NCBI GenBank assembly: GCA_905478775.1
Contig: CAJQKB010000001.1
Span: forward strand, 1 to 42,363
Length of the DNA: 42,363 bases
Reading direction: 5' to 3'
Source: an uncultured Opitutales bacterium
Lineage (GTDB): Bacteria; Verrucomicrobiota; Verrucomicrobiia; Opitutales; Seribacteraceae
Shown: positions 3,647 to 16,872 of the stretch, piece after piece
Position numbering within the stretch: position 1 is the first letter of the stretch
How the letters are laid out: each line of letters begins with the position of its first letter
Translations under genes and position numbers: made by a program
Notes under the pieces: model-generated
Seen by the model: the letters and a program-made list of their open reading frames with translations, nothing else
What the model was told of the DNA's origin: nothing
Database searches by the model: none

Positions 3647-4516
3647 ATGGCAGTAAAAGTAAATGAACATATTATTCCAGATTGGGCGATTGAAAGACAG
3701 GCGCAGTCTCTTTTCGAACAGGTTGAAAAGTCAATGCCGGGCAAACCGCGAGAAGTCATCCAATTAGCGGCATTGGACTTGGCGAAGGACCGAATGATTG
3801 ATCAGTCTCTAATGGGGCAGGAGAGCCAAACACGGGGATATGAAATTGATGCGGAGGAAGTGAGTTTGGGAATGAAGCAATGGATTAGTCAAAATGGGGG
3901 TAAGAAGGCATTTTCCAAGGGAAAGCACCCCGTAATCAAGACTCAGGAAGACCTGAAAAAGGAAATCATTAGCCAGTGTCAATTTAACAAGTTGCTCGAA
4001 GAGGAGACTACCTGTGAACCGGTTTCTGAGGAAGAGGCCCAGAAATACTACGAGGCAAGGCCTGATTTATTTGAGACTGAAGTGACGGTTACTGCGTCGC
4101 ACATTTTAAAAATGGCAAAGACAGAGGATGAATTTGAAGAAGCAGAGAAAAAGATAATAACACTAAGGAAAGAAATTATCGGAGGAAAAGACTTTAAAGA
4201 AGCAGTTCAGGCGGAGTCAGATGATGCACAAAATGATGGACACTTGGGAACCTTTGGAAAAGGACGAATGGTGGAACCATTTGAAAAAGCAGTATTTGCA
4301 TTAAAACCAGGCGATATCAGCGAGCCAATTAAAACTCAATTCGGCATTCATATCATACAATTACATGATCGTAAGGAAGCTCAATTGACCCCTTTCAGTG
4401 AGGTGAAAGAGAAAATAATTGAGTACCTCGGAGAAAGAAGGAAAGATACCAAGTTCGACAAATTCCTCGACCAACTTAAGGAAAAAGCCGAGATTATAGA
4501 AGTCGCAGGTTTCTAA
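3647..4516 (+). CDS. Parvulin-type peptidyl-prolyl isomerase, apparently cytoplasmic
   Basis: A 289-residue protein with a SurA/trigger-factor-like helical N-terminal part and a parvulin (rotamase) domain at about residues 140-260. Landmarks are TASHILKMA, GHLGTFGKGRMVEPFEKAVF and the closing FGIHIIQLHDRK. These are typical of PpiC/SurA/PrsA isomerases, which catalyse proline cis-trans isomerisation and act as chaperones. The start was placed at the ATG at 3647 (MAVKVNEH); the frame stays open upstream to a TTG at 3596 but has no better initiation site. No signal peptide or lipobox follows this start, which is unusual because SurA and PrsA are exported. It is divergent from the Fur-family gene and convergent with metF, 12 bases away. 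Confidence 0.85.
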   Translation: MAVKVNEHIIPDWAIERQAQSLFEQVEKSMPGKPREVIQLAALDLAKDRMIDQSLMGQESQTRGYEIDAEEVSLGMKQWISQNGGKKAFSKGKHPVIKTQEDLKKEIISQCQFNKLLEEETTCEPVSEEEAQKYYEARPDLFETEVTVTASHILKMAKTEDEFEEAEKKIITLRKEIIGGKDFKEAVQAESDDAQNDGHLGTFGKGRMVEPFEKAVFALKPGDISEPIKTQFGIHIIQLHDRKEAQLTPFSEVKEKIIEYLGERRKDTKFDKFLDQLKEKAEIIEVAGF

Positions 4517-4528
4517 CCTGCTGATTAA

Positions 4529-5407
4529 TTATGCTTTGATTCCTTCGAGGATTTCCACGCTCGCTGCCGATTGATTAAGTGCATAGAGATGGAAACCGGG
4601 GGCACCTCCGTCGAGAAGTTCCTGTACCTGTTCTTTTGCCCAATTGGAACCAACACCAGGCTGTTCTGCCTCGGGCGAGTCCTGCAATCTATCCCTGAGT
4701 GCGACTGGTAGGGTTGCCTCACACATTTTGCAAAATCTTTGCACCTGTCCCATTGATAAGACGGGCAGTAAGCCAGGAAGCACAGGGATATCGATTTGAT
4801 TGGCTTTACAATCTTTTACGAATTGAAAATAGACTTCATTATCAAAAAATAGTTGAGTCGTAATAAAGTCTGCACCGGCATCGACTTTTTCTTTCAGGCG
4901 ATACAAATCTTCTTTTTTGCTGGGAGATTCAGGATGTTTTTCAGGGTATCCCCCTACGCCAATTCCAAAGTGGGGGAAATATTTTCTTATCAGTGCGACC
5001 AGTTCTGTGGCGAAAGATAAACCTCCCTTGACAGGTTGAAACTGAGTTTCTCCCTGGGGAGGGTCGCCGCGCAAGGCCATAATATTACAGAATCCTTCCT
5101 CCGAGAAATCCTCAAGGATTTTGAGTAGTTCATCCTGAGTATGTCCGACACAGGTTAAATGGGGCATTACTTCAAACCCAAAATCATTTTTCAGGATTCG
5201 TGCATATTGCATTGTGGTCTCCCGGGTACTACCCCCGGCACCATAAGTGATCGAAACAAAATCTGGATTGTATGGTTTGAGTATACCGGCAGTTTTGAGA
5301 ATCCTTTCTCCCCCTGCATCATTTTTGGGAGGAAAAAATTCCAACGAGAAAATGGGTTTCTCACTTTTGAAGAATTCCGAAATTGAAGTTCCTTTTGTCA
5401 TTTTCAT
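4529..5407 (-). CDS. metF: Methylenetetrahydrofolate reductase
   Basis: FAD-dependent 5,10-methylenetetrahydrofolate reductase, which makes 5-methyl-THF for methionine synthesis. The 292-residue protein shows the family segments FSLEFFPPKN near 20-29, FVSITYGAGGSTRETT, HLTCVGHTQ, NIMALRGDPP, VGGYPEKHPES and FITTQLFFDN. The ATG at 5407 was chosen; a second in-frame ATG lies at 5401. No Shine-Dalgarno is present because the bases immediately upstream are a perfect 24-bp palindrome (5408-5431). A plausible promoter overlapping that palindrome would start transcription at or next to the ATG, implying a leaderless message. The preceding TPR gene stops 51 bases upstream, so read-through from the TonB operon is also possible. 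Confidence 0.95.
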   Translation of the reverse strand: MKMTKGTSISEFFKSEKPIFSLEFFPPKNDAGGERILKTAGILKPYNPDFVSITYGAGGSTRETTMQYARILKNDFGFEVMPHLTCVGHTQDELLKILEDFSEEGFCNIMALRGDPPQGETQFQPVKGGLSFATELVALIRKYFPHFGIGVGGYPEKHPESPSKKEDLYRLKEKVDAGADFITTQLFFDNEVYFQFVKDCKANQIDIPVLPGLLPVLSMGQVQRFCKMCEATLPVALRDRLQDSPEAEQPGVGSNWAKEQVQELLDGGAPGFHLYALNQSAASVEILEGIKA

Positions 5408-5431
5408 ATCAACATATCATGATATGTTGAT
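5408..5431 (-). promoter_or_regulatory. Perfect 24-bp palindrome at the metF start (candidate operator)
   Basis: The half-site ATCAACATATCA is followed with no spacer by its exact reverse complement. The palindrome ends one base before the metF ATG. A possible promoter runs through it on the minus strand: TTGCAA at 5440-5435, an 18-base spacer, then TATGTT at 5416-5411. A repressor dimer bound here would cover the -10 box and the start codon. AT-rich ATATC/GATAT dyads resemble operators of ArsR-family regulators, some of which control methionine-cycle genes (SahR-like). The regulator's identity is inference, and no ArsR gene is in the window. An RNA hairpin acting on translation is the alternative. 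Confidence 0.7.
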
Positions 5432-5458
5432 GCGTTGCAAGTCGGTTCTCTTTCGTTT

Positions 5459-6829
5459 TTATAGTCGAACCCGAGCGGTTAGTAGCAAGTTGCGAATGGA
5501 TTCGAGAAATCGGCTGATTCTGGGTTGAGGGTCAATATCTTCTGCACGTTCAAGAAGCCGAACTGCTTTTTCATAATTTCGGATTCCTACCATCATCCTC
5601 CCATGTTCGATCAATGCGGGCGCTTCGAACTCATCAATTTTACTGGCTCGTTCAAAGTGTAAACTTGCGAGCACATAATCCTTGTCCTGCCATGCATGTC
5701 GTCCAAGCATGATCAGAGCTTTTCCTTCCAGTGGGTGCATTTCCACTATTTTTCGAAGAATGGCAGTCGATTCTTTCGTTTGTCCCGTTGCTTGCAAGAC
5801 CTCTGCTTTCAGTAGTAACACTTTTCTTTCGTCTTCCGGAGTAAAATTAGAACCCAATAGTTGTTGAATTTTTTCGAGGTATTGAAAACAATCCTCATAG
5901 GAGGCTCTATTCATCAATATACTGGCCGCACGCACATATCTGTGAAGGGAAATTCTTTCCTTTTTTTCAATGGCAAGTTGATAGTTTTGAAGAGACAGTT
6001 CGTAGAGATTTAAATTATGATAAAGATCCCCTAAATTAAGGAGGTCCTGGGTTTTTAATTGTCCCATTCTTTTTAGGGTTTCCATCGCCACCGCAGCCTC
6101 TCTTTCCTTCCCCAATCCCTGGAGTGCGTGAACCCGAGCTCGATGGCAAATGACATCCTCCGGTTGCGTGGCCAGTAATTCATCCAGCAGGGCAAGCGCT
6201 TCCGGGAACCGGCTTGTTTCAATCAGGCAGTTCACTAAACCATTTTGGGCGTATTTACTATCCGGGGAAAGGAGTGTTCCCATCCGGTAGGCATTTTCTG
6301 CCGACATAAATCGTTGTCGCATGTAGTGGCAGTAGCCCAGTGCCACATAGGTAACTCCATCCCCTTCACCCAAACTAATCGATCGAGACAAGTTTTTTGC
6401 CGCACTTTCAAAATTGCCCAAGCTTAACCCTACAAATCCTAGATTTTTATAGGCTCTTAAAAAGGAGGGGAATTTCTTAATTGCAAGGTTGTAACTTTCT
6501 TCAGATCGAGTCAGTCGTCCGTTTTGGTAGTACATTGTTCCCAAAGCAAAATGTAATGCAGCACTCGATTTATCCTCCATTTTCTTTTCCAGATAAATAA
6601 TTGCATCCTCCAATTGGTTCTCCGCTTTCGCGACCACCTCCTGAAGGATTGATTGTTCACTCTTACTTATCTTGGGTTCTACCTCAGATCTAAATCCATA
6701 GTCCCCCATAAAACTGCGGACAAAACTGGGACTGTTCCAAAAGTCAGCAGTTAGTTCATGCGTGGGAGGCACGGCAATCAAGAAAGACAAACAAAGGATG
6801 CAACTACAGTAAAAAAATATCTTTTTCAT
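5459..6829 (-). CDS. Secreted TPR-repeat protein, last gene of a TonB2-type operon
   Basis: A 456-residue protein with an N-terminal signal peptide (about residues 1-20, hydrophobic core FFYCSCILCLSFLIAV) followed by tandem tetratricopeptide repeats over most of its length. Repeat hallmarks include AALHFALGTMYYQNGRL, AYKNLGFVGLSLGNFESA, LLNLGDLYHNLNLYELS and ALIMLGRHAWQDKDY. It should be a periplasmic scaffold. In Vibrio-type TonB2 clusters a TPR protein occupies the same terminal position. Its start overlaps the tonB stop by 4 bases (ATGA), which supports translational coupling. Its exact role in energising outer-membrane uptake is not known from the sequence. Confidence 0.85.
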   Translation of the reverse strand: MKKIFFYCSCILCLSFLIAVPPTHELTADFWNSPSFVRSFMGDYGFRSEVEPKISKSEQSILQEVVAKAENQLEDAIIYLEKKMEDKSSAALHFALGTMYYQNGRLTRSEESYNLAIKKFPSFLRAYKNLGFVGLSLGNFESAAKNLSRSISLGEGDGVTYVALGYCHYMRQRFMSAENAYRMGTLLSPDSKYAQNGLVNCLIETSRFPEALALLDELLATQPEDVICHRARVHALQGLGKEREAAVAMETLKRMGQLKTQDLLNLGDLYHNLNLYELSLQNYQLAIEKKERISLHRYVRAASILMNRASYEDCFQYLEKIQQLLGSNFTPEDERKVLLLKAEVLQATGQTKESTAILRKIVEMHPLEGKALIMLGRHAWQDKDYVLASLHFERASKIDEFEAPALIEHGRMMVGIRNYEKAVRLLERAEDIDPQPRISRFLESIRNLLLTARVRL

Positions 6830-7910: not shown

Positions 7911-8311
7911 CTATTTTTTAAGGTGGCAAGAGAAACAGAAGGGGCCACTTTTTTGGCCGCGGAAACGATTTTTGCGAGGAGTGTCGCGTCTGCCCATTGA
8001 TCAACTTGAATCACAACTGGTTTCTCTTTTTCTTTAATCGCCTGCGTAATGAGGGGTGCCACTTCATTTAATTGCACAGATTTACCGGCATGAAAAATTT
8101 CATTTTTTTCAGAAAGGGCAAATAAGACGGAATTTTTTTGCAAAGAAGTTGATTTTTCAACTCTGGGCCTGCTTACATCCACTCCTGGCAGGGTGACAAA
8201 TGTGGCAGATACAATAAAAAAAATAAGCAAAATAAAAACGACATCAATTAATGGAGATACATTGATCGATTCATCCTCCTCGTCCAGGGTCGATCTCCTC
8301 CTTAATTTCAT
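7907..8311 (-). CDS. ExbD/TolR family protein (first of two copies)
   Basis: A 134-residue ExbD/TolR subunit with the membrane helix INVSPLIDVVFILLIFFIVSATF at about residues 16-38, including the conserved aspartate at about residue 23. The periplasmic part ends in a basic-tailed segment (LATLKNR). Systems described for TonB2 usually carry one exbD, so two consecutive copies suggest a heteromeric ExbD pair or separate roles. It starts inside the stop of the preceding exbB (4-base overlap). Confidence 0.92.
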   Translation of the reverse strand: MKLRRRSTLDEEDESINVSPLIDVVFILLIFFIVSATFVTLPGVDVSRPRVEKSTSLQKNSVLFALSEKNEIFHAGKSVQLNEVAPLITQAIKEKEKPVVIQVDQWADATLLAKIVSAAKKVAPSVSLATLKNR

Positions 8312-14439: not shown

Positions 14440-16872
14440 TTATGTCCTTAAAGAGTAGGGCGTATTAGTTTCAATTTTTTCGACAATTTTTTCAAATGCG
14501 GCATTAACCTCATTCTCACCCAAAGTCCGGTCCGGAGAACGGAATCGCATAGAACATGCGATACTTTTTTGATTTTCTGGCATTCCTTTTCCGGAGAAGA
14601 GATCGAAAATTGTGACAGGATCCACCTCAAACTTTCCCTTTGCGATATCGATGGCGATTAATTCAAGGGAAGAGCGGACTTGTTCAGCAGATTCGTTTTG
14701 GTCCACCACGAGTGCCAAGTCTTTAATCGCAGGCGGAAATGTGGAAAATGGTTGGAAGGTAGTATTCTTTCTTTTCTTAGAGAGAAGAATGGGATCGATT
14801 ATTATTTCAACCGCTAAAACTGGACCTCTAATTTCTTTTTCTTTCGATAATGGAAGAGAAATGATACCAGCAGAAATTTCAATTTTATTTTGATGAACAT
14901 TTCCTATCCGGGCCGCATGTTTATTTTGCCATGGAGAACTGTCTTCGATTGGACACCATTTTTTCTTGGGTAAAGAAATTCCAGTACCATGAAAAAGGCG
15001 ATGGATTATTCTTTTCAGATCAAAAAAATCAAGTTCTTCAGTTTCTTTCCATTCCCGTATTACTGAATGAGGAAACAGGGCAAAGCTGACGCTCAATAAT
15101 TCTACATTACCTCGTGGACCGGGTTGAAAAACTCTTCCCGTTTCAAAGACCTGAGACAGGGGATTGAGATTTTTTTGATTATTGGCCAATGAATCGAGCA
15201 GCCCCGGCAGAAGAGACGGACGAACATGGGTATGGTCCGCGGTGAGTGGGTTAAGAAGTCCGATCTTTTCATTCTCCAGTTGGGGGAACCAGTTCTTTAT
15301 TTCCTCGCCTGATCGCAAACTGTAATTACAAACCTCCTGGAAGCCCTGACCTGACAAATTTTCAATTGCTCGATCGAAAAAATCATAACTTGGATCATTC
15401 TCGCGGTGAATTGCTGGGATGGAAAGACTGCAATCAGTTAATTTTGATGTTCCGTAAATACGAATGAACTCCTCCACCAAATCAATCGGCCTGTCTACTT
15501 CCGAGCGAAATGAAGGAACTTCCACACTCCATGGATTTGTACCCTCAACCTGAAAGCCCAACCTTTCCCAAGATCGAACCAAAATGCCGGGATCAACCGA
15601 GAATCCACACTTTTCTTCCACAAAAGACTGATCGATCTGGATGACTCGAGAACCGCGGGGTGGTTCGCCTGCTATAACTACCTCAGGAATACACTCTCCA
15701 CCGGCAATTTCCAAAATTAAATCGATTGCCCTTCGAGCAGCAAATTCAATACCACTAGGATCCACATCTCTGGCAAACCGTTGAGAGCTATCCGAATGAA
15801 GCCCCAGTCGGCGGGCAGTGCTTCTTACATTTCCAGGTTCGAACCATGCAGATTCAAGGATAATATCCACGGTTGAATCGTCCACCTCGGCATCGATGCT
15901 TCCCATGACACCCGCGATTACCAATGCTTTTTGGGAATCCGCAATCACCATCATTTTCGAATCCAGTATTCGTTCCACGCCATCGAGGGTAGTCAACTTC
16001 TCACCCTCCTTTGCCTGTCTTACCACAATGGATTGCTGTGCCACTTTTTGGGCATCAAATGCATGGAGTGGTTGCCCCGTTTCCCACAGGACGAAATTAG
16101 TAATATCTACCACATTGTTGATTGCGCGTGCACCCACAGATTCGAGGCGTGTCTTCAGCCAGTCTGGGCTGGGGCCAATTTTTACTCCCCGAATTGCCCA
16201 CAGTGAATAAAAGGGACAATTTTGGGTTTCGACACTCAAACCTTGAATTAAATTCTGATCGGTGGGTTGATTGGTGGTAGGAGCGGAAATTTTTAATTCA
16301 GGAAGCTTTAGATTTTCTTCGTAATAGGCTGCCATTTCGCGGGCCACTCCAATATGACTTAAACAATCTCCCCGGTTTGCAGTGATTTCAAGTTCCAGGG
16401 TTACATCACTTTGAAAAAGTTCGCTCACTGGAGTACCTACTTTAGGATGGTCAGGAAGAATGAGTAGTCCTTCGTTATCCTGACCCAGTTCTAATTCGAC
16501 GGCACTGCACATCATACCCTCCGATGGCACTCCGCGAAGCTTTGATTTTTTAATTTTAAAACCGCCCGGTAATTTTGCACCCGGCAGAGCGACTGGCACC
16601 CGATCTCCGACCACAAAATTTGTGGCACCACAAACAATTTTCGCAGGTTCACCCTGCTCAGAAACTGTTACCATGCAGACACTCAATCGATCCGCTTCCG
16701 GATGTGGTTCTTTTGATAAAATTTCTCCCACCACCACATGTTCGAGTGAACTACTGGACTGATTTCCGCTTTCTTCGACCTCCAGTCCAAGCATGGGCAA
16801 AGAATCGACCAATTCGAGATGGGTAGCACTGCAGTCCACATACTGCCTTAACCAATCGATACTTACTTTCAT
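14440..16872 (-). CDS. pheT: Phenylalanyl-tRNA synthetase beta subunit
   Basis: An 810-residue bacterial-type PheT, partner of PheS in the alpha2-beta2 enzyme. The N-terminal OB-fold tRNA-binding domain (about 40-150) contains HPEADRLSVCMV. The B3/B4 editing region follows at about 210-390 (ARAINNVVDITNFVLWETGQPLHAFD). The B5 region and catalytic-like domain come next, and the C-terminal FDX-ACB anticodon-binding domain at about 710-805 includes FPPAIKDLALVVD. The length is normal. Its ATG overlaps the pheS stop in an ATGA, so translation is coupled. Confidence 0.96.
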   Translation of the reverse strand: MKVSIDWLRQYVDCSATHLELVDSLPMLGLEVEESGNQSSSSLEHVVVGEILSKEPHPEADRLSVCMVTVSEQGEPAKIVCGATNFVVGDRVPVALPGAKLPGGFKIKKSKLRGVPSEGMMCSAVELELGQDNEGLLILPDHPKVGTPVSELFQSDVTLELEITANRGDCLSHIGVAREMAAYYEENLKLPELKISAPTTNQPTDQNLIQGLSVETQNCPFYSLWAIRGVKIGPSPDWLKTRLESVGARAINNVVDITNFVLWETGQPLHAFDAQKVAQQSIVVRQAKEGEKLTTLDGVERILDSKMMVIADSQKALVIAGVMGSIDAEVDDSTVDIILESAWFEPGNVRSTARRLGLHSDSSQRFARDVDPSGIEFAARRAIDLILEIAGGECIPEVVIAGEPPRGSRVIQIDQSFVEEKCGFSVDPGILVRSWERLGFQVEGTNPWSVEVPSFRSEVDRPIDLVEEFIRIYGTSKLTDCSLSIPAIHRENDPSYDFFDRAIENLSGQGFQEVCNYSLRSGEEIKNWFPQLENEKIGLLNPLTADHTHVRPSLLPGLLDSLANNQKNLNPLSQVFETGRVFQPGPRGNVELLSVSFALFPHSVIREWKETEELDFFDLKRIIHRLFHGTGISLPKKKWCPIEDSSPWQNKHAARIGNVHQNKIEISAGIISLPLSKEKEIRGPVLAVEIIIDPILLSKKRKNTTFQPFSTFPPAIKDLALVVDQNESAEQVRSSLELIAIDIAKGKFEVDPVTIFDLFSGKGMPENQKSIACSMRFRSPDRTLGENEVNAAFEKIVEKIETNTPYSLRT

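Follow-up and report, generated by a model that had tools for sequence, protein, structure and literature searches.

Which role does a long palindrome play that ends directly at a start codon of metF, and which protein, if any, reads it? The gene in question—5,10-methylenetetrahydrofolate reductase, matching PF02219 (E=1.2e-87) and scoring over the cut-off of TIGR00676—is located on the minus strand at positions 4529–5401 of the window, the 42,363-nucleotide stretch of DNA from an uncultured Opitutales bacterium that was analyzed here. A first-pass annotation had described a perfect 24-bp palindrome at 5408–5431, and the sequence bears this out: all 24 of the 24 positions of ATCAACATATCATGATATGTTGAT are paired. 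The window contains no other perfect palindrome of at least 16 bp, and by base composition only 0.003 perfect 24-bp palindromes are expected in it. Upstream of metF, a TPR-repeat protein gene (5459–6829, minus strand), which stands outside the system described here, ends 27 bp before the palindrome.

The same annotation had left one base between the palindrome and the metF ATG and had regarded both as fused. Neither description fits: the palindrome touches the in-frame ATG at 5407 (minus strand) without any gap, and the likely true start codon lies 6 bp off. In an alignment of the genus, an ATG 5–7 bp past the palindrome is nearly universal in metF genes. In the palindrome-touching codon, on the other hand, GCG, GTG or ATA often takes the place of ATG; in two relatives (L065 and L081) an ATG at this place would read ATG AAA TGA. 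As the first ATG is unusable or replaced in relatives and the later one is nearly universal, position 5401, the second in-frame ATG, is the probable start of metF. The apparent fusion of palindrome and start codon is thus an effect of the letters ATGT belonging to the flank of the operator.

This flank is part of a longer pattern. An extended operator of two ACRYATCA units followed by their inverted copies spans 5404–5435 (again strandless); the 32-bp pattern ACRYATCAACRYATCATGATRYGTTGATRYGT, which allows for R/Y at four dinucleotides, matches here with one mismatch, where shuffled sequences yield an expectation of 0. The flanks are conserved within the genus, with the C at −2 kept in 57 of 57 sites. 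About its axis the metF operator shows the spacings ATC-N2-GAT and ATC-N18-GAT, and ATC-N10-GAT is present twice off-axis. A loose match, ATCAATTAATGGAGATACATTGAT at 8243–8266 of the window, was considered as a third operator and taken as chance, given its position within a coding ORF and its palindromy of 8/12.

A scan of the source genome with up to three mismatches revealed a single further copy, ATCAAGATATCATGATGCGTTGAT, 5 bp before metH. The metK gene of this genome, for which a short query gave no match, was located by a family search; the contig ends within this gene, which accounts for the missing metK site in this assembly. Among 38 relatives, 30 carry a match to the motif, and a reversed control pattern gave 0 matches both in these 38 and in 237 genomes of the class. 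Almost all sites fetched from the relatives (63 of 66) precede metF, metH or metK, the three exceptions being two weak matches (G013:C7 and G031) and one phage contig. The 57 genus sites divide evenly into 19 before each of metF, metH and metK, and position, sequence and gene set are conserved across the 24 further genomes searched within the genus. The first-pass annotation had proposed an ArsR-family methionine or SAH-type operator and had named absence before metF in close relatives as the refuting outcome; the site is found there, and its conservation before metF, metH and metK in close as well as distant relatives supports the proposal. Wherever metK was examined within the genus, ahcY begins 42–55 bp past it, and judging by this spacing the metK site probably drives a metK–ahcY operon. 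Hence, the regulon would cover the SAM cycle.

Where these sites sit relative to promoters bears on how they might act. All 19 metK genes of the genus have TTGATT at roughly −35, and most of them also have a TGnAAT-like hexamer at −12; the start codon is at +1. This layout, TTGATT-N17-TGnAAT-N6-ATG, is that of a predicted leaderless-type promoter, just upstream of which the operator is positioned—the palindrome ends 7–9 bp before the TTGATT. Class-wide, metF, metH and metK sites lie 35–48 bp before the start, and a TTG near −35 and a −10-like hexamer are commoner there than in shuffles. Within the genus, the metF and metH palindromes lie 5–7 bp from the start codon and have a conserved TTG before them; therefore, the site would cover the −10 and the start, which is the position of a repressor. 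In the window, the candidate −35 of metF is TTGCAA (5435–5440, minus strand), whose TTG is conserved across the genus at 8–9 bp upstream of the metF palindrome and whose function is putative. A candidate −10 within the palindrome (TATGTT or ATATGT, 5411–5417, minus strand), proposed from the letters only, is 17–18 bp from TTGCAA; its match to the consensus is weak, and a promoter scan of the metF strand did not report it. The missing Shine–Dalgarno had been read as a sign of a leaderless metF. This argument falls away, since only 2 of 35 gene starts in the window have a Shine–Dalgarno core—the lineage seems to start translation largely without one. Across the remaining window genes, leaderless promoters are weakly supported. 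Leaderless or near-leaderless transcripts are nevertheless plausible, given the metK promoter of the genus.

Two proteins of the source genome score above the ArsR (PF01022) cut-off. One of these, of 125 amino acids, adjoins an arsC-like gene. The other is an ArsR–methyltransferase protein of 311 amino acids (G000:C38:7333–8265) with PF01022 at residues 14–59 and PF08241 at residues 152–247; among named entries it is most closely related to Opitutia/Opitutales genome bins of Verrucomicrobiota, the closest (JABGUO01, SI034_bin157) being 99% identical over the protein. Among 237 Verrucomicrobiae genomes, drawn evenly from the class, the motif is present in 98 and this regulator in 194. All 98 motif-bearing genomes carry the regulator, and none of the 43 regulator-less genomes carries the motif (hypergeometric 4e-12, with kinship ignored). 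A weight matrix detects weaker metH sites, well above shuffles, in 10 regulator-positive genomes that fail the strict pattern; it finds no metH site in any of five regulator-negative genomes (0/5), nor in a few regulator-positive ones. In three families the site lies between the divergent regulator and metK (G217 and G267 in one, G132 and G166 in the two others), and a site at the regulator's own gene is present in these four genomes and in G259. The regulator gene of the source genome was seen with neither a site nor a met neighbor, and 105 regulator loci of the order Opitutales yielded one weak chance match and no autoregulation site. The link between operator and regulator is hence drawn from sister families and co-occurrence. 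A predicted model of the regulator (mean pLDDT 84.6, pTM 0.56, with an uncertain linker) matches SAM-dependent methyltransferases in Foldseek, SAH-bound ones included; Rv2258c with SAH is the first match. Ligand binding by the methyltransferase-like domain is thereby supported; the structure does not fix the identity of the ligand and is only suggestive of SAH as effector.

Taken together, we consider it highly probable that a SahR-type regulator, i.e., an ArsR-family winged helix joined to a SAM/SAH-binding methyltransferase-like domain, uses the palindrome as its operator at metF. SahR is an S-adenosylhomocysteine-responsive ArsR-family regulator known from Alpha-, Delta- and some Gammaproteobacteria (PMC4239095). 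The comparison of genomes shows the operator, its regulon (metF, metH, and metK followed by ahcY) and a linked regulator; repression and SAH sensing are presumed. Dimers of the regulator would bind 8-bp-phased half-sites, covering the −10/start region at metF and metH and the stretch just upstream of the −35 at metK. At low SAH the regulator would block transcription, and at rising SAH it would leave; the steps of SAH hydrolysis, homocysteine remethylation and SAM synthesis might then be turned on together. That one protein represses at both promoter layouts is our best guess.

How do other explanations compare? A perfect 24-bp palindrome is expected by composition 0.2 times per 2.8 Mb, a figure in favor of chance; the conservation within the genus and the 98 class genomes with the motif have already refuted this idea, whose probability we regard as negligible. 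A hairpin in the transcript or a terminator of the upstream gene would also account for a palindrome, as a 10-bp stem can form in the strand. However, the fold z-score is only −1.9, a T run is missing, and no terminator-like site was found between the TPR-repeat gene and metF. In addition, the other sites are imperfect palindromes (7–9 of 12 pairs) with fixed ATC/GAT letters—as expected for protein–DNA contacts—so that we hold such an RNA structure for extremely improbable. The same target genes, and for MetJ the 8-bp repeats of its boxes, might instead point to another methionine regulator (MetJ or MetR) or to an RNA switch. A search of the 38 relatives found no MetJ, with the control genome positive, no Rfam riboswitch was found at eight operator loci, and the motif differs from the ATGAA-N5-TTCAT of MetR (PMC4239095), which renders this reading very unlikely.

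Another explanation keeps operator and regulator and lets the regulator activate transcription, at least of metK. Activators, too, use places upstream of the −35, where the operators of metK and those across the class are located, and the metK palindrome of the genus keeps its short distance to TTGATT. Against this, the genus metF and metH sites overlap the region where repressors act, and SahR has been described as a predicted repressor (PMC8877191). Activation thus appears unlikely, and we retain the SahR-type repressor as the explanation of the metF operator.

Copies of the operator are also found in phages, at set positions in two unrelated marine groups. One lies at positions 15285–15308 of an 18,307-bp phage contig (L357; G005:C23) encoding a terminase, a major head protein and a C5 DNA methyltransferase; this contig has the same length as IMG/VR contig 2786546549_000007, with a 100% match for the proteins compared. 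An exact scan of IMG/VR detected the operator in 17 viral contigs (L358–L374), mostly with matching 4-bp flanks, where we estimate that well below one would be expected by chance. In one phage group, the operator is located a few hundred bases past a conserved gene and about 30–50 nt before a conserved GTAGAAATGAAT-like element. In a second approach, contigs were selected by phage proteins (terminase), blind to the motif. Eight of these, some of which are already among the contigs of the motif scan, carry the site with up to one mismatch, about 3.2–6.1 kb upstream of the terminase and close downstream of the same neighbor gene, where this neighbor was found. The long terminase-selected contigs without the site belong mostly to one clade with more distant neighbor genes, and the reversed control gave 0 in the terminase-selected contigs. 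A search with the neighbor gene added six covered contigs, four of which have the site.

A second, unrelated group is T7-like, with RNA polymerase, primase–helicase and DNA methyltransferase. Here, the operator lies 870–1040 bp after the terminase, between terminase and early genes, in 5 of 45 covered contigs (L366 at 3912–3935, L466, L472, L475 and L544). Related T7-like contigs (L483, L490, L503, L512, L513 and L534) bear a different repeated GACATCATGACGTCATGAC-type motif about 830–1075 bp after the terminase, which is perhaps the operator of another host's regulator. Matches of the GACATCATGAC type, with 5–6 mismatches, occur at the same phage position as the operator. We tentatively propose that marine phages of two unrelated groups, putatively infecting these Verrucomicrobiota, carry the SAM-cycle operator of their host before phage genes, and that phage expression is thereby tied to the SAM/SAH state of the cell through the host regulator or its titration; this is a real possibility that stops short of being probable. 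If true, the phages' own DNA methyltransferases would disturb the SAM/SAH state of the host.

The site itself is ordinary in principle, and the phage copies, which would suggest that viruses employ a metabolic switch of their host, are the surprising part of the finding. For a phylum with few described regulons, the analysis provides a specific, class-wide and testable one with an SAH-type regulator, the operator letters and the targets. We found no published Verrucomicrobiota regulon of the SahR kind, and 'SahR' matches for the phylum looked unrelated, judging by their titles. It is thus a known kind of site, a SahR-type operator, with a distinct layout and from a phylum for which we found no earlier description of one.

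Homologues of the regulator that align over both domains were found in Alphaproteobacteria and Leptospira by a search of plasmid records, with about 27–33% identity—a value that refers to homologues adjoining met genes and not to proven SahR proteins. Several lie directly before metF (in Sphingomonas, Novosphingobium and Rhizobium) or before ahcY–metH (in Leptospira), and some adjoin metF–metH. Palindromes related in sequence to the verrucomicrobial operator accompany the homologues at metF and at ahcY–metH: ATATAAAGATATCTTTATAT, ACATAAAGATATCTTTATGT and ATAAAGATATCTTTAT are found upstream of such genes or at their start. In Leptospira interrogans (L316:4921–4944), the perfect 24-bp palindrome GGATATCAAGATATCTTGATATCC marks the start of an ArsR–methyltransferase gene that is followed by ahcY and metH. 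The 16-bp half ATCAACATATCATGAT of the metF operator is identical to the core of the Leptospira site, ATCAAGATATCTTGAT, at 14 of 16 positions, and the metH half at 15 of 16. Judging by these letters, the verrucomicrobial operator resembles a pair of SahR-type boxes that share 8 bp, (ACRYATCA)x2 and then the inverse. The findings suggest that SahR-type control reaches Verrucomicrobiota and Spirochaetota.

The MetJ/met box system of Gammaproteobacteria likewise serves methionine genes through an operator of 8-bp-phased repeats, but protein family and operator sequence differ from those found here. SamR regulons of Xanthomonadales have a 24-bp palindrome and metH, metF and metK as targets, and the SamR motif resembles that of SahR (PMC4239095). 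This likeness is one of length and targets rather than of compared motif letters; SAM-cycle genes besides metK were not found in SamR regulons (PMC4239095), whereas here ahcY directly follows metK behind one site. The core SahR regulon comprises sahR, ahcY, metH, metF and metK (PMC4239095). It shares with the present system the ArsR-family regulator, the core targets metF, metH, metK and ahcY, the regulator's own gene among the targets—here in sister families—and homologues of the same domain layout adjoining metF–metH or ahcY–metH. The present system differs in its phylum, in the Opitutales regulator genes found without a site and, within the genus, in metF and metH sites so close to the start codon. 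Furthermore, SahR uses one 20-bp palindrome with ATC-N10-GAT about the axis, as opposed to 24–32 bp with ATC-N2-GAT and ATC-N18-GAT here. Because this axial 20-bp arrangement differs, the system is classed as SahR-type with a variant operator, and not as a SahR regulon as defined in Proteobacteria.
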